A DNA stretch of 64,000 nucleotides from Natronorubrum halophilum (lineage in GTDB: Archaea; Halobacteriota; Halobacteria; Halobacteriales; Natrialbaceae): the NCBI RefSeq assembly GCF_003670115.1, contig NZ_QQTY01000004.1, positions 372,001 to 436,000 on the forward strand, read 5' to 3'. The translations under genes and the position numbers were made by a program. Under the pieces are notes generated by a model, which saw nothing but the letters and a program-made list of their open reading frames with translations, searched no databases and was not told the DNA's origin. Shown piece by piece: positions 38,434-45,330 of this stretch (position 1 is its first letter; each line of letters opens with the position of its first letter).

Positions 38434-38651
38434 CCGGCTAAATCTCACGAGCGGTTTTCGTGCAAATGCGATTCAGGACCACGGTGTGTGACACGACGAC
38501 GAATGCGGCAAACGATTCGAGACTTGTAAAGTGCGGTGTAACTTTTCGTTTTCTTTGCCGTTTTTCGACTCATCGTTCAACGAATAGTGACGTTCTTTGC
38601 TCCTAATGTTACAATTCCGAGTGAAAGACAATTTAGGACTGAACAGCAAGC

Positions 38652-38657
38652 TATACC
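38652..38657 (+). promoter_or_regulatory. TATA-like element of the ferredoxin gene
   Basis: TATACC about 26-31 bases before the ATG at 38683. Confidence 0.4.
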
Positions 38658-38682
38658 AGTGCGGGACTCGAATCGGCGATTG

Positions 38683-39072
38683 ATGCCCACGGTAGAATAC
38701 CTCAACTACGAAGTGCTGGACGACCACGGCTGGGAGATGGATGACGACGACCTCTTCGATGAGGCCGCAGACGCTGGCCTCGACGAAGAGGACTACGGTA
38801 CCCTCGACGTTGCCGAGGGTGAATATATCCTCGAGGCAGCCGAGGCGCAGGGCTACGACTGGCCCTTCTCCTGCCGGGCAGGTGCCTGTGCAAACTGTGC
38901 GGCCATCGTCTTCGAGGGTGAAATCGACATGGACATGCAGCAGATCCTCTCCGACGAGGAAGTCGAGGAGAAGAACGTCCGACTGACCTGCATCGGCTCC
39001 GCCGAGACCGACGAGGTCAAGATCGTTTACAACGCGAAACACCTCGACTACCTGCAGAACCGCGTCATTTAA
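38683..39072 (+). CDS. Halophilic 2Fe-2S ferredoxin
   Basis: 129-residue plant-type ferredoxin with the haloarchaeal hyperacidic N-terminal insertion ([20 protein letters not shown]). Cluster ligands: CRAGACANC (C-x4-C-x2-C) and the fourth Cys in VRLTCIGS. This is the main electron carrier of haloarchaeal 2-oxoacid oxidoreductases. It begins [17 protein letters not shown] like other Halobacteria ferredoxins, which fixes the start at 38683 instead of the upstream ATG at 38587. Confidence 0.97.
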
Positions 39073-39781: not shown

Positions 39782-41131
39782 TTAGTCGCGGTCGATTCGA
39801 TCCGGCCACGTGCCGCACTCGCGCGCGTCCAACCGGTCGTCGGTCATCGAGATCCACCGCACCTCGTTCCAGCTCAGCCGGTAGTGACAGGTCTCCGGTT
39901 TCAGCTGCTCCCAGTAGATGGTCTGCATCGACGGGACGTCCCCGTCGGCCGGCGTTATCGGCAGCTCCTCGCCCTCCGGTTCGGCCTCCTGTTGCATCGC
40001 CTCCAGCGTGGATTGTGGCGACAGCGAGCTGTGGTTCCAGACCATTCCGGAGACGACGAGCAGTCCGACAACGGCGACGACGGCGACGATCGCTACCCGA
40101 CGGTGGCTCGTTCGAGCCGCGTCGCCGCCGCGACGGTCCGTCGTCGACCGCCACGACACCGCGCGCTCGACGGCGATAGCCACGCCGAACGCGACGAAGG
40201 CGAGCCAGAGGAGCGCGTCCGTCGCACCGTCCATGTCGACGAACAGGACCTGCAGGCCGAGGATCAAGCCGCCCGCCGGAACCCACCACCGCGATCGGTC
40301 GCGGACGACCGCGTCCGCCCAGCCGTAGACCGCCACCGGGATGAGCACCGATGCGTACCCGAACACGAGCAGTATCGAGTAGACGCGCTCCGCCAATGTG
40401 TACGGCGACCCTGCGACGAGCGGCGCGAGGATCGTCTGTACGATCATGGGAACGAGTGCGCCCGCGGCCGCGAATACGAGGACGACCGCCCCGGTCACGA
40501 CGCCACCTCCCGCGATCGCCGAGAGCGCGCCCCTTCCGCCGGCTCGCTGGTAGGCCATTCCGACGATCAGCGGCGCGAACGCGCCGCCCGATTGCCACGA
40601 ACCGGCGGCCAGCGCCGCGGCGACCCCGGCGAGGAACGGCCGGTCGCGGAGGGCGAGCGCGAGCGCCGCGACGCCGAAGAACAGCGCGTAGAACTGCGCT
40701 CGAACCCCTTGCATGGGGAGGATGAAGAGCGCCGGGAGGACGAACATCGAGAGGCCGGCGGCGATCGCGGCGATATCTTCGCCGGTGAGGAGGCGCGCCA
40801 CCCATCCGACGAGCAGGACGCTCGCGGCGGCGACGGTCACCGTGAGCGCCACGCTGAGGGCGTGTAGAACGAACATATCGCCGCCCGAGACGGCGGCGAG
40901 AGCGGCCGTGATCCCGAACGGTACGGGCGGGTTCACGTCCCAGACGTCGACGTACGGAACGCCGCCCTGGAGGACGTACCAGCCCGTGTGCTGGAAGAAC
41001 GCCGGATCGGTCACCATCGGCGGGTCCTCGACGCGATAGATGGCGAAGCCGACGACGAACATGAGCACGACGATCGGGCCGAGGACGACGAGCCAATCGG
41101 AGCGACGGCCGACGCGTGAACGCACGGCCAT
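39782..41131 (-). CDS. GT-C membrane glycosyltransferase (DolP-mannose mannosyltransferase-like)
   Basis: 449 residues, about 11 membrane helices. The N-terminal extracytoplasmic loop after helix 1 holds acidic residues (VEDPPMVTDPAFFQHTGWYV, then VDVWDVNPPVP), as in lipid-phosphate-sugar dependent GT-C enzymes. It ends with a soluble ~85-residue tail outside the membrane (WEQLKPETCHYRLSWNEVRW). It resembles haloarchaeal proteins annotated as DolP-mannose mannosyltransferase; the donor sugar here is unproven. It starts one base after the epimerase stop, so the two are cotranscribed. Confidence 0.8.
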   Translation of the reverse strand: MAVRSRVGRRSDWLVVLGPIVVLMFVVGFAIYRVEDPPMVTDPAFFQHTGWYVLQGGVPYVDVWDVNPPVPFGITAALAAVSGGDMFVLHALSVALTVTVAAASVLLVGWVARLLTGEDIAAIAAGLSMFVLPALFILPMQGVRAQFYALFFGVAALALALRDRPFLAGVAAALAAGSWQSGGAFAPLIVGMAYQRAGGRGALSAIAGGGVVTGAVVLVFAAAGALVPMIVQTILAPLVAGSPYTLAERVYSILLVFGYASVLIPVAVYGWADAVVRDRSRWWVPAGGLILGLQVLFVDMDGATDALLWLAFVAFGVAIAVERAVSWRSTTDRRGGDAARTSHRRVAIVAVVAVVGLLVVSGMVWNHSSLSPQSTLEAMQQEAEPEGEELPITPADGDVPSMQTIYWEQLKPETCHYRLSWNEVRWISMTDDRLDARECGTWPDRIDRD

Positions 41132-41132
41132 T

Positions 41133-42224
41133 TCAGATCCGCTTCGAGATCGTCTTCGCGACGGCGAGAGCGCCCTGGTCCCACGCGACGCGGTGGTCGA
41201 GTCCGGTCTCGTCGTCGACCTCGTCGACCTCGTAGTTCTCGAGATACCACTCGTACGTCTCCACGAGCGCCTCCCGGTTGGAGTACTCGGGCTCCCACCC
41301 GAGGCGTTTCAGCTTCTCGACGGAGACGTAGGAATCCTCGTGGGCCGTCTCGTAGACCCACGGGTACAGCGGCGAGAGGTTCAGTCGGTCCAGGACGCGA
41401 AGGACCGCGACCGTGAGGAAGGCGGGCGTTCCGATCGTGCGCTTGCCCGTCCCCGCGTAATCGATGGGAGCCTGAAAGTCCTCTCTCATCGTGGCGAACT
41501 CGTCGGCGCCGACGTTGAACGTATCGTTCACCTCGTCCTCGTCCCCGGTGAGCATCAGTTCGATGGCGGAGACGAGATCGCGGACGTGCAACAGCTGGTA
41601 CCGGTTGTTCCCCCGCCCGACCAGCGGGACGTTCGCACCGTCTTCGATCCAGTCGAACAGCACCTGGAACACGCCGAGTCGCTGCGGACCGACGAACGTC
41701 TTGGGACGGAGAACGGGAACGCACAGGCCCATGCGGCGGAAGTCCCGACAGATCTTCTCGGCCTGAATCTTGGCCCGTCCGTAAGGACCGACGCCGTCCA
41801 AGGGCGAGTCCTCGGTGATGGGATGTTCGTCGTGGGTCCCGTAAACCGACGTGGAGGAGACGTAACAAACCCGCTCGACGTCGCGGTCCGTCGCCGCCCA
41901 GAGCACGTTTCGCGTCCCGTCGATGGTCGTCTCCCGAATGCGGTCTGCGTCCCACAGGGGGAGCGCCGCCGCTGCGTGAACCACGGACGTAGCGCCGCTC
42001 TCCTCGAGCGCGTCGGTCACGGACGTCTCGCTCCGGACGTCACCCTCGACGAAGTCGATGTCGTCGGTGTCGTCCGCCGCGTCGAAGGGCTTGAGGTCGA
42101 ACGCAGTGACGTCCCACCCGCGGTCGCGGAAGTACTGACACGTGTGGAGACCGAGAAATCCGGTTCCGCCCGTAACGAGAACCGAACCGTTCGAGTCGTC
42201 GCCGGTGCGCGCACCATCGCTCAT
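41133..42224 (-). CDS. NAD-dependent epimerase/dehydratase (extended SDR)
   Basis: 363 residues from the ATG at 42224. NAD-binding VLVTGGTGFLGLHTCQYF, downstream VVHAAAALPLW, Ser-Ser-Thr segment VCYVSSTSVYG, and catalytic Tyr-x3-Lys in GPYGRAKIQAEK. It is an extended short-chain dehydrogenase of the nucleotide-sugar epimerase or lipid-linked sugar oxidoreductase type. TATTTACT sits at about -27 to -34. First gene of a two-gene transcript with the GT-C enzyme and divergent from the UbiA operon, so a role in making the sugar for that cluster is likely. Confidence 0.88.
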   Translation of the reverse strand: MSDGARTGDDSNGSVLVTGGTGFLGLHTCQYFRDRGWDVTAFDLKPFDAADDTDDIDFVEGDVRSETSVTDALEESGATSVVHAAAALPLWDADRIRETTIDGTRNVLWAATDRDVERVCYVSSTSVYGTHDEHPITEDSPLDGVGPYGRAKIQAEKICRDFRRMGLCVPVLRPKTFVGPQRLGVFQVLFDWIEDGANVPLVGRGNNRYQLLHVRDLVSAIELMLTGDEDEVNDTFNVGADEFATMREDFQAPIDYAGTGKRTIGTPAFLTVAVLRVLDRLNLSPLYPWVYETAHEDSYVSVEKLKRLGWEPEYSNREALVETYEWYLENYEVDEVDDETGLDHRVAWDQGALAVAKTISKRI

Positions 42225-42726
42225 CGTGGTATCGACTCCTCGAGACGACGAGTAAATAGTGTATCGCCGGCTAACAGTCGTATACCGAGTCAAATTTCCG
42301 CGTATTCGGCGAAACGAGAGCATTACCGCGGCGAACGATCGCCTGACTCGAGCGACCGCTCGTCGTGGTTCCCGCGGGTTCGTCCCGCGGTGAAACGGCG
42401 GTTTTCGCCTCACTTTTCAACCGACAGACCCATACTCGTTCCGTCATTTTCGCGCGAGCTAGTCGTCTCCGCGCCTCTCAACGGAGATATCTGCCGGTTC
42501 GCTCGGTGAACCGGATCACAGGTATGGAACACGAACCGCCGTTCAAATCACGGTTATCGCGTCGCGGTCTTTCGATCGCTCGGCTTGAATCGAGCAGTCC
42601 ACGGCGTCGGGAGCCGACGCTGCCGTTCTGACGACCGTTTTCTCGTTAGCTCGATATTGAGGTGCGTAACAGAGTGACAAGTAAGCCGCGTCTTTTTGCC
42701 GTCCTGTGTTCGAGAGACACCGATCG
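42225..42726. other. Shared control region of the divergent glycan operons
   Basis: About 500 bases between the epimerase and UbiA genes. It holds the epimerase promoter (below) and a T-rich stretch CTTTTTGCC (42689-42697) upstream of the UbiA gene. No gene is seen. Confidence 0.5.
42251..42258 (-). promoter_or_regulatory. TATA box of the epimerase/GT-C operon
   Basis: TATTTACT on the minus strand, 27-34 bases before the epimerase ATG. Confidence 0.5.
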
Positions 42727-43641
42727 ATGGCGGAAGTATACGCCGACCGAAGCCGGGTCGTGGTGGCCGTCTCCGGCCTGATCAAGGAGATACGCCCCTG
42801 GCAGTGGTACAAACAGAGCATTCTGCTCCTGGGGTTCGTGTTCTCCGAGAGCCTGTTCGATCCGGTGGCCGTTACGAACGTCTCTCTCGGCGTTGTCGCC
42901 TTCTGTGCCATCACGGGCGCGACGTACATCGGCAACGACATCGCCGACATCGAGGAAGATCGTAACCATCCGCGAAAGAAACACCGCCCCATCGCCAGCG
43001 GACAGGTTTCGATCCCCGTCGCGGTGATGTTCGGAGCGCTGCTCTTCGTCGGCGGACTCGCCCTCTCCTGGTATCTGGGTCCGCTGTTCGTGCTGATCGT
43101 CCTCGCGTACCTCGCTCAGAACGCGTTTTACTCCGTGTTCCTGAAACAGATCGTCATCGTCGACGCGATGGTCATCGCCATCGGGTTCGTGCTGCGAGCC
43201 GTCGCGGGCGTCGTCGCCATCGACGTCTACCTGAGTCCCTGGCTCGTCGTCTGTACGTTCCTCGGGGCGCTACTGCTGGCGTTCGGCAAGCGTCGCCACG
43301 AGATGATAGTCAGCGACGATCCGTCCTCGTCGCGCTCAATACTCGCCGAGTACACCGAGGAGATTCTCGACCAGTTTCTCGTCGTCGTCCTGGCGGCGCT
43401 TCTCGTCTCCTACTCGCTCTACACGGTCTTCGGCAGCGGACCGTGGATGATGTCCACGCTTCCGTTCGCCTTCTTCGCGGCCTTCCGATACCACTACCTC
43501 GCCTACACGCGGGATCTGGGCGGCGACCCGAAGTTCCTCTTCGCCGACCGTCCGTTCTTCATCAACCTCGTCGTCTGGGGCGTTCTGGTCGTCGGAGTTC
43601 TTTACGAGGTCCCGCTTTACCTCCTCGGAGCGATCGCGTGA
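42727..43641 (+). CDS. UbiA-family prenyltransferase, decaprenyl-phosphate phosphoribosyltransferase-like
   Basis: 304 residues, about eight or nine helices. The Asp-rich motif is NDIADIEEDRNHPRKKHRPI, near residues 75-94. The N-D-x2-D-x3-D-R-x-H-P-x-K-x2-R-P-I-A-S-G layout matches DPPR synthases (polyprenyl phosphate + PRPP), where the basic residues hold the 5-phosphate; ordinary quinone/heme prenyltransferases differ here. A second motif is GKRRHEMIV. If so, it makes polyprenyl-phosphoryl-5-phosphoribose at the membrane. It is followed after 28 bases by a PHP hydrolase and then a membrane protein: a three-gene operon. ATG at 42727 is preferred over 42706. Confidence 0.82.
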   Translation: MAEVYADRSRVVVAVSGLIKEIRPWQWYKQSILLLGFVFSESLFDPVAVTNVSLGVVAFCAITGATYIGNDIADIEEDRNHPRKKHRPIASGQVSIPVAVMFGALLFVGGLALSWYLGPLFVLIVLAYLAQNAFYSVFLKQIVIVDAMVIAIGFVLRAVAGVVAIDVYLSPWLVVCTFLGALLLAFGKRRHEMIVSDDPSSSRSILAEYTEEILDQFLVVVLAALLVSYSLYTVFGSGPWMMSTLPFAFFAAFRYHYLAYTRDLGGDPKFLFADRPFFINLVVWGVLVVGVLYEVPLYLLGAIA

Positions 43642-43669
43642 TTTCCGCCGTTCCCCCACCGAACACACC

Positions 43670-44350
43670 ATGACGCGCCGATACGATCTTCAGGTTCACA
43701 CGGACGCCTCGCCCTGCTCGAGCGCGCCGCCCGAGCGCGTCGCCGCGGCAGCGGTCGACGCCGGACTCGACGGCATTGCCGTCACCGACCACGATACGCT
43801 CGCGAACGTCGACGCCGTTCGGGACGCCGCGCCCGAGGGCCTCGAGGTGATCGCCGCGGTAGAGGTGACGACGACCGAGGGACACCTCCTGGCGCTCGAC
43901 GTCTCGAAGGCCCCGCCGCGGACCGACCCGCTGACGGCGATCGATCACGTCCACGACCAGGGGGGCGTCGCCGTCCTCTCGCACCCGTTCGACACGCTCC
44001 GGCAGTACTACGAGACGGACCTCGACGCCCTCGCCGACGCCGTCGACGGCGTCGAAGCGGTGAACTCCCGCTGCGTCCGCCGCCGATACAACGAGCGCGC
44101 CGCGGCGTTCGCGAGCGCCCGCGGTCTGCCGACGACCGGCGGGAGCGACGCCCACTTCCCGATGGAAGTCGGCCGCGCGTACACCAGCGTCGAGGGCGAC
44201 GGATCGCTCGCGGACGCCGTGCGGGACGGCCGCGTGCGGCCGGGCGGCCGCGGCCGGTACCTCTCCGGTCACGTCGCGACGAAGCTCCACCGGTTTCGAA
44301 CCGCCTCCGGTCGCACCGCCGCGAACCTCGTCTCGAGGAGGCTTCCGTAA
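43670..44350 (+). CDS. PHP-domain metal-dependent hydrolase/phosphatase
   Basis: 226 residues. PHP signatures: DLQVHTDAS, GIAVTDHDTLA, VLSHPFD and GGSDAHFPMEVG supply the His/Asp cluster for a trinuclear metal site. The family includes histidinol phosphatases and nucleoside 5-phosphate hydrolases such as RNase AM-type enzymes. Between the DPPR-like synthase and a membrane protein, a plausible task is removing the 5-phosphate from a phosphoribosyl lipid or a related sugar phosphate; that is inference. Confidence 0.87.
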   Translation: MTRRYDLQVHTDASPCSSAPPERVAAAAVDAGLDGIAVTDHDTLANVDAVRDAAPEGLEVIAAVEVTTTEGHLLALDVSKAPPRTDPLTAIDHVHDQGGVAVLSHPFDTLRQYYETDLDALADAVDGVEAVNSRCVRRRYNERAAAFASARGLPTTGGSDAHFPMEVGRAYTSVEGDGSLADAVRDGRVRPGGRGRYLSGHVATKLHRFRTASGRTAANLVSRRLP

Positions 44351-44352
44351 CG

Positions 44353-45330
44353 ATGAGCGGTGAGACCGGCGATATCGGAGGGAACGTCGTCGACCGCTGT
44401 CGGCGAGTCGTTCAAACCCACGGAGTCTGGCTGACGGCGCTGCTCTCGGTCGTCGTCTTCTTCGGTCTCGTCGCCTACGCCGACGTCGGAGCCGTGACGA
44501 GCGCTCTCGCCGCCGTAGACCCGGTGACGTTCGGAGCCGTCATCGGTCTGACGACCGTCGGCTACGGCTTCCGGTTCGCCAAGTGGCACTACTACCTCCG
44601 GTACCTCGGCGTCGACGTCCCGCTCGAGGCGAGCGCGATCACCTTCTTCAGCGGCCTGATGATGGTCGTCACGCCGGGCAAGGCCGGCGAGGTCTGGAAG
44701 GCATGGTTCCTCCGCGACGAACGCGGCGTCCCCGCGAGCGAGACCGCCTCCGTCGTCGGCGCCGAGCGCATCACGGACCTCGTCGCGCTGAGCGCGATGG
44801 CCGCGCTCGGAGTGCTGGTCTACAGCCGATCGTCGGTTCCGATCGTCGCCCTCGTCGTCGCCCTCGCGGCCGGGATCGGGTTGCTCCAGTGGCGGCGGGC
44901 CTGTCTGACGATCCTCGAGCGCCTCGAGTCGGTCCCGGTCGTCGGCGACTACGCGGCCGACGTGGAGCGGTTCTACGAGAGCACGTACCGCCTGTTTCGG
45001 TTCCGTCCGCTGGTCGTCTCGACGCTGCTCAGCCTCGCGGCGTGGGGGTTAGAGGGGATCGCCTTCTGGCTGGTGCTCGACGGATTCGGCACCGAAACAG
45101 GCGTCGTGATCGGTCTGTTCGTCTTCGGCTTCGGGTCGGTCATCGGCGCGGTGTCGATGCTACCCGGCGGACTCGCGGCGACGGAGGCGTCGATGGTCGG
45201 CGTACTGGTCGCGCTCGGCTACTCCGAGGCCGTCGCGGCCGCCGCCACGATCGCGATCCGCGTGGGGACGCTGTGGTACGCTGCGGCCCTCGGAACGGCG
45301 GTATTCCTCGCGTACAAGGCGACTCGCTGA
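44353..45330 (+). CDS. UPF0104/lysylphosphatidylglycerol synthase-like flippase-domain membrane protein
   Basis: 325 residues, about eight helices, of the LPG_synthase_TM (MprF N-terminal) fold. Conserved segments: TFFSGLMMVVTPGKAGEVWK, followed by VVGAERITDLVALS, and the late SMLPGGLAATEASM. Such domains move or bind polyprenyl- or glycerol-phosphate lipids and are often beside archaeal glycosylation genes. It starts two bases after the PHP gene stop, so it belongs to the same operon and could flip the product lipid. Confidence 0.88.
   Translation: MSGETGDIGGNVVDRCRRVVQTHGVWLTALLSVVVFFGLVAYADVGAVTSALAAVDPVTFGAVIGLTTVGYGFRFAKWHYYLRYLGVDVPLEASAITFFSGLMMVVTPGKAGEVWKAWFLRDERGVPASETASVVGAERITDLVALSAMAALGVLVYSRSSVPIVALVVALAAGIGLLQWRRACLTILERLESVPVVGDYAADVERFYESTYRLFRFRPLVVSTLLSLAAWGLEGIAFWLVLDGFGTETGVVIGLFVFGFGSVIGAVSMLPGGLAATEASMVGVLVALGYSEAVAAAATIAIRVGTLWYAAALGTAVFLAYKATR

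Follow-up and report, generated by a model that had tools for sequence, protein, structure and literature searches.

A candidate lipid-linked pentofuranose donor module and its glycosyltransferase in Natronorubrum halophilum and other archaea

RESULTS

Gene content of the locus

A 64,000-nucleotide stretch of the Natronorubrum halophilum genome (contig NZ_QQTY01000004.1, positions 372,001 to 436,000; hereafter the window) carries, at positions 39782 to 45330, five genes in two divergent groups, which we consider here as a candidate module for making and using a lipid-linked pentofuranose. An earlier note, made from the sequence alone, had described these genes and their arrangement correctly, and Pfam and NCBIfam models confirmed the domain assignments of all five. 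The left-hand group, on the reverse strand, consists of a GT-C membrane glycosyltransferase of 449 amino acids with about 10 transmembrane segments (39782 to 41131; Pfam PF15971, Mannosyl_trans4, AglS-like, 4.4e-31) and, 1 bp away, an extended short-chain dehydrogenase/reductase (SDR) of 363 amino acids (41133 to 42224; GalE/HpnA-like). The right-hand group, on the forward strand, begins with a UbiA-superfamily protein of 304 amino acids (42727 to 43641), a predicted polyprenyl-phosphate phosphoribosyltransferase. It is followed after 28 bp by a PHP-domain hydrolase with a PHP_C domain (226 amino acids; 43670 to 44350; Pfam), proposed as the 5'-phosphatase of polyprenyl-phosphate-ribose-5-phosphate, and after a further 2 bp by a UPF0104/LPG_synthase_TM membrane protein (325 amino acids; 44353 to 45330; flippase-like by TIGR00374), proposed as a flippase of polyprenyl-phosphate-pentose.

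Similarity of the UbiA protein to phosphoribosyltransferases

The UbiA protein scored 248.3 bits over its full length against the model for decaprenyl-phosphate phosphoribosyltransferase (NF008977), above the curated cut-off of 234, and its best solved relative was Mycobacterium tuberculosis Rv3806c (PDB 8j8j, E 8.9e-33), with digeranylgeranylglyceryl phosphate (DGGGP) synthase reaching only 1.5e-4. In the cryo-electron microscopy structure of Rv3806c, the residues that contact phosphoribosyl pyrophosphate (PRPP) and decaprenyl phosphate are R22, K28, Y70, N73, D77, K87, R90, Q135, Y138, K143, Y157, and K191 (PMC10994848). Ten of these residues (R22, K28, Y70, N73, D77, K87, R90, Y138, K143, and K191) have identical equivalents in 32 of 32 haloarchaeal homologues, a conservation that arises partly by selection, because 13 of the 32, like the bacterial comparison set, were picked by patterns including part of the motifs; the remaining 19 came from a profile search. 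The Q135 position is Asn in the haloarchaeal homologues, as it is in 43 of 67 bacterial ones, and the Y157 position is Phe, as in 66 of the 67. Thirteen other haloarchaeal UbiA proteins lack the equivalents of K28, Y70, and K191, and K87 is mostly replaced in them. In the first Asp motif (NDIADIEEDRNHPRKKHRPI; 42934 to 42993), N77, D81, K91, and R94 correspond to the Mg- and PRPP-contacting N73, D77, K87, and R90 of Rv3806c; K91 and R94 are the extra basic residues to which the earlier note had drawn attention, and their counterparts belong to the pyrophosphate-binding cluster. The invariant KRRHE motif (43288 to 43302) supplies K195, R196, and E199, the equivalents of K191, R192, and E195.

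Maximum-likelihood analysis placed the haloarchaeal homologues in one clade (support 100/98) on the side of the bacterial homologues and Rv3806c, whose own end branch is long and whose exact place within the group is therefore unsure. A long branch (99/98) parts this side from DGGGP synthase and the other haloarchaeal UbiA proteins. The profile score, the best structural match, the ten retained contacts, and the tree placement thus agree with the proposal that this enzyme is of the decaprenylphosphoryl-5-phosphoribose synthase type, and its identity as a polyprenyl-phosphate phosphoribosyltransferase homologue, predicted to use PRPP, is strongly supported. The name decaprenyl-phosphate phosphoribosyltransferase already stands in the database annotation of some haloarchaeal UbiA proteins, so this naming has precedent.

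Linkage and distribution in Halobacteria

Our profile search detected the enzyme in 17 of 194 Halobacteria genomes, at 19 loci, with a bimodal score distribution (198 to 251 bits, next best match 35 bits). UbiA, PHP, and UPF0104 occur in that order on one strand in all 19 loci, and the SDR adjoins them in every case; it shares their strand at L049 and is divergent at the other 18 loci. The SDR family (E < 1e-60) tracks the enzyme genome for genome, occurring in those 17 and in none other of the 194 (Fisher p 9e-25). With 19 of 19 loci and 17 of 17 genomes, the linkage of the SDR to the UbiA-PHP-UPF0104 unit is not a matter of chance; the conserved neighbourhood expected from the earlier note was found for these four genes, and the GT-C partner varies. 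The PHP clade (296 to 404 bits, next group 164) is confined to the 17 genomes and G066. The G066 locus (L130:8431-9230) illustrates decay of the module, with PHP and UPF0104 retained and UbiA reduced to a C-terminal fragment.

Among the named species that carry the module are Natrinema zhouii, N. gelatinilyticum, Natronorubrum thiooxidans, Haloarcula amylolytica, Halococcus morrhuae, H. thailandensis, and Halalkalicoccus paucihalophilus. It also lies on large plasmids in Halostagnicola larsenii, whose UbiA is WP_049954310.1, in Haloterrigena sp. KLK7, and in Natronococcus. Such a scattered distribution, in part on plasmids, is in keeping with an accessory module for surface glycans. No virus-borne copies were confirmed in viral contigs.

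Several modules have further genes nearby. A VTT-domain (DedA-type) membrane protein is convergent to UPF0104 at L040:6361-7011, L043:11306-12001, L045:6290-6943, L048:16433-17188, and L130:6713-7465; some DedA proteins recycle polyprenyl phosphate. Near some Natrialbaceae modules lie genes for an aryl-sulfate sulfotransferase, a sulfotransferase, and an adenylyl-sulfate kinase (L133:9870-11174, L033:10825-12267, L134:15327-17648), which suggests that the target glycan may be sulfated.

Related loci outside Halobacteria

A survey of 295 genomes of the phylum showed the enzyme in ten that lie outside Halobacteria. Of the gene neighbourhoods inspected, all from methanogen-side archaea in this set, four (L144, L145, L148, and L149) contain UbiA with UPF0104 and a PHP of matching type, and another (L146) contains UbiA with UPF0104. 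A different arrangement was found at L147, in a non-haloarchaeal genome of the phylum, where UbiA is followed by a fusion of a HAD phosphatase with a GtrA/DPMS transmembrane domain (L147:8911-9939), an SDR 52% identical to that of the window, and a GT-C. In a quick tree the L147 UbiA fell outside the archaeal group, so the SDR accompanies two separate synthase lineages. In the bacterial system, dephosphorylation is performed by a HAD domain (PMC11127046), and GtrA is the proposed flippase of lipid-linked glucose. The fusion resembles a single-protein replacement for PHP and UPF0104 together, and the exchange of both proteins for its two domains points to a phosphatase role for PHP and a flippase role for UPF0104.

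DUF362 proteins are encoded near the phosphoribosyltransferase gene in methanogen-side archaea and several bacteria (L144:9608-10672, L145:7092-8261, L146:10607-11734, L148:11148-12287, L149:14158-15285, and also L072, L075, L080, L082, L093, and L110); they perhaps represent another step of the same pathway. The contig of a Bacteroidales metagenome-assembled genome (MAG), L063, holds UbiA, GT-C, two PHP genes, SDR, and UPF0104. It was dropped as a bacterial sister locus when its UbiA fell inside the archaeal group upon addition of methanogen-side sequences; the contig may be transferred or mis-binned and was not used as bacterial evidence.

The PHP hydrolase, the SDR, and the glycosyltransferases

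The solved proteins nearest to the PHP profile belong to the PHP phosphoesterases, among them RNase AM and an amidohydrolase bound to adenosine monophosphate and phosphate (2yb1), and the predicted structure (predicted local distance difference test score [pLDDT] 88.5) matches the PHP phosphoesterases 3e38, 7ug9, and 2anu. Residues H10, H41, E65, H105, D160, and H162 are invariant, and the haloarchaeal proteins have Gln in place of the first His of the usual HxH motif. Phosphomonoesterase activity is plausible for this protein, judging from its residues and modelled fold. The phosphatase and flippase roles that had been assigned to PHP and UPF0104 are consistent with their conserved position and with their HAD/GtrA replacement at L147.

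The SDR resembles GalE-type enzymes (GalE/dehydratase-like by profile) and carries the motifs TGGTGFLG and YxxxK (Y149 and K153). It had been cast as part of a two-enzyme epimerisation of the DprE1/DprE2 type, a proposal that we do not retain. DprE1 belongs to the ALO-domain family; a search for ALO proteins (PF04030) came up empty for the window genome and for eight of the nine other genomes with the module, the Corynebacterium glutamicum control being positive, so that nine of the ten have a single SDR and no protein of the DprE1 type. The remaining genome, G157 (Halococcus-like), encodes an ALO-domain protein (C1:2652493-2653242; 252 bits) that is possibly DprE1-like. In Citrobacter youngae O2, the conversion of lipid-linked ribose to xylose is the work of a single SDR (PMC11127046), and this one-enzyme epimerase is the better model, because there is one SDR and no DprE1-type protein.

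The GT-C of the window has a conserved TDPAFFQHTGWY..GGVPYVDVWDVNPP near its N terminus. Elsewhere its place is taken by other proteins: PMT_2-type GT-Cs occur at L040, L045, L047, and L049, and between loci most GT-Cs show no sequence match to one another. Bacterial three-component systems likewise combine an unchanging donor module with GT-Cs that differ. In G169 the neighbour of the module is a homologue of AftA, the priming arabinofuranosyltransferase of mycobacteria, with matches to AftA_N (1.5e-24) and AftA_C (2.4e-7) that are both above cut-off and to PDB 8if8 (2.1e-18); it is the sole AftA_N match in the 194 Halobacteria genomes, and the window genome has none. Arabinose is thus a possible product in at least one strain. 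Beside the AftA-like gene, the SDR of G169 is interrupted by stop codons and a frame change (L043:7575-8401), and an intact SDR lies at a second module of the same genome. That GT-C families, including an AftA-like one, vary next to a module that does not speaks for the earlier view of the GT-C as the user of the donor; an Emb-type enzyme is not supported for the window, where the Pfam family is the AglS-like Mannosyl_trans4.

Gene starts, the divergent region, and the flanks

Comparison with homologues moves the SDR start from GTG 42413 to ATG 42224, and the UbiA start from GTG 42706, from which its reading frame is open, to ATG 42727. Because both starts shift inward from the longest open reading frames, the divergent region spans about 502 bp (42225 to 42726). 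Short boxes are kept near both starts, and only these are conserved across Natrialbaceae, where the gap ranges from 170 to 571 bp. The suggestion that the two operons share one control region therefore stands only in part: the region looks more like a back-to-back pair of promoters than a single conserved operator, and the module at L049 is colinear. A shared regulator of the two operons is possible.

The flanking genes encode a PHO4-family transporter, a sodium symporter, and an M24 peptidase; these transport and metabolism functions are unrelated to the module, and the five genes thus form a stand-alone unit. Between the PHO4-family transporter and the GT-C, a 2Fe-2S ferredoxin domain protein (38587 to 39072; Pfam Fer2, 7.5e-15) shows no sign of belonging to the module.

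DISCUSSION

We read the cluster as an archaeal lipid-linked pentofuranose donor module together with its glycosyltransferase, and assign this reading a probability of roughly three in four; the exact pentose, the acceptor, and the enzyme activities are predictions from sequence. At the inner membrane face, UbiA would transfer 5-phosphoribose from PRPP to a polyprenyl phosphate, in archaea dolichyl phosphate. The PHP hydrolase would then take off the 5'-phosphate, as its strict linkage, its phosphoesterase fold, and the HAD replacement in a related locus suggest. A single SDR, whose pairing with UbiA was observed to be strict, may epimerise the ribose at C3 or C2 to give xylose or arabinose. 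UPF0104, in whose place a GtrA domain occurs at L147, would carry the charged lipid to the outer face. There the GT-C, swapped from strain to strain beside a constant donor module, would hand the pentofuranose on to a glycan or glycoprotein at the cell surface.

The closest precedent appears to be the three-component pentofuranose systems of Citrobacter youngae O1 and O2 (Kelly et al. 2024, PMC11127046), nearer than the mycobacterial pathway. They share with the haloarchaeal module, as we read it, a PRPP-dependent polyprenyl phosphoribose synthase, dephosphorylation, an optional single SDR epimerase, a flippase, and a GT-C. In contrast, their HAD-type phosphatase domain is fused to the synthase and their flippase belongs to the MATE family, whereas the haloarchaea have a separate PHP hydrolase as candidate phosphatase and a UPF0104/LPG_synthase_TM protein in the position of the MATE flippase. 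The GT-C of the bacterial systems is of family GT136; the haloarchaeal GT-Cs match Pfam Mannosyl_trans4 (window), PMT_2, or AftA (elsewhere). The parallel drawn in the earlier note with the mycobacterial decaprenylphosphoryl arabinose (DPA) pathway (Rv3806c, Rv3807c, DprE1/DprE2, Rv3789, Emb/AftA) survives for the homologous first enzyme with its substrate-contact residues, for the proposed phosphatase and flippase roles, and for the GT-C as probable donor user, with an AftA homologue at one haloarchaeal locus. It does not extend to the Rv3807c phosphatase family, to DprE1/DprE2, or to an Emb-type GT-C; PHP and a single SDR are found instead, with no DprE1-type oxidase in the window genome. 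The module may accordingly be likened to both bacterial systems while standing outside strict membership of either, by its flippase family in the three-component case and by the absent DprE1 in the case of DPA. The Haloferax AglD/AglR/AglS branch resembles it in that a charged dolichyl phosphate is made inside, moved across the membrane, and used outside by an AglS-type enzyme (PMC3871713), the window GT-C belonging to the Pfam family named for dolichyl-phosphate-mannose mannosyltransferase, but there the glycosyltransferase AglD makes the lipid-linked sugar, for which we propose a PRPP-using UbiA.

Several observations weigh against our reading. The SDR is not beside UbiA in most methanogen-side loci and was not seen within the fetched stretch of three MAG loci (L054, L057, and L059), so epimerisation is not universal. 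PAP2 phosphatases are encoded elsewhere in all ten genomes tested, and PHP need not be the phosphatase. The family of the window GT-C is named for dolichyl-phosphate-mannose, which makes mannose use possible, and its structure model is of low confidence (pLDDT 40, from a four-row alignment). The polytopic neighbours of the types seen at L036, L042, L044, and L046 match no GT-C model well and are GT-C candidates only.

The absence of an adjacent SDR from some phosphoribosyltransferase loci would also suit a module that makes lipid-linked ribose only and transfers ribofuranose, the SDR having another job, such as supplying a nucleotide sugar for the same glycan. The GalE/dehydratase-like profile of the SDR is compatible with such a role, and the Citrobacter O1 system, which has no epimerase, transfers ribose (PMC11127046). 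We nevertheless regard this explanation as unlikely, since one would not expect a general nucleotide-sugar enzyme to be confined to the same 17 of 194 genomes as UbiA, nor does it account for an SDR that accompanies UbiA at L147 despite a different phosphatase and flippase. Somewhat less likely again is that the SDR and the AglS-like GT-C form a separate glycosylation unit of the dolichyl-phosphate-mannose type that neighbours the UbiA operon by chance. Membership of the GT-C in PF15971 and the use of dolichyl-phosphate-mannose by AglS as a mannosyltransferase in Haloferax (PMC3871713) favour this idea, but it is at odds with the perfect co-occurrence of SDR and UbiA, their divergent adjacency in 18 of 19 loci, and their position on one strand in one cluster at L049 and L147.

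The identity of the lipid acceptor bears on a further explanation, in which UbiA uses PRPP with another acceptor, for example an archaeal ether-lipid phosphate, so that its product is a ribosylated lipid of the membrane and not a donor for glycan synthesis. Several isoprenoid phosphates occur in archaea, and the acceptor cannot be read from the sequence; however, K36 and K195, the equivalents of the decaprenyl phosphate binders K28 and K191 of Rv3806c, are invariant, and a polytopic GT-C or GT-C-like gene, in one case an AftA homologue, lies beside most modules, which makes this explanation improbable. As for a quinone, heme, or ether-lipid prenyltransferase misnamed by similarity, membership of the UbiA superfamily (Pfam PF01040) would allow it, but residues, tree, and scores all side with the PRPP-using enzymes, apart from the other haloarchaeal UbiA proteins, and at the level of sequence we consider this candidate ruled out.

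With the pentofuranose donor module as our preferred reading, a broader proposal has somewhat better than even prospects, namely that Halobacteriota, the haloarchaea and their methanogen-side relatives alike, have a lipid-linked pentofuranose pathway of their own, with a PRPP-using UbiA, a PHP phosphatase and a UPF0104 flippase as new family roles, exchangeable GT-Cs that include a true archaeal arabinofuranosyltransferase, and surface glycans bearing unreported pentofuranoses. We found no prior account of a route of this kind in archaea in the open-access literature, subscription journals lying outside the search, and the 2024 paper on the Citrobacter systems mentions archaea only in a reference title (PMC11127046). 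If the proposal holds, archaea too would make surface pentofuranoses by the PRPP-to-lipid route, which is best known from mycobacterial walls and variable bacterial polysaccharides, and functions would be gained for a clade of PHP hydrolases and for UPF0104 proteins that are now annotated by domain alone. It would also account for a variable set of archaeal GT-C genes and predict a pentose in the surface glycans of Natrinema, Halostagnicola, Halococcus, and Haloarcula amylolytica. These archaea would then offer a harmless system for studying enzymes related to tuberculosis drug targets.

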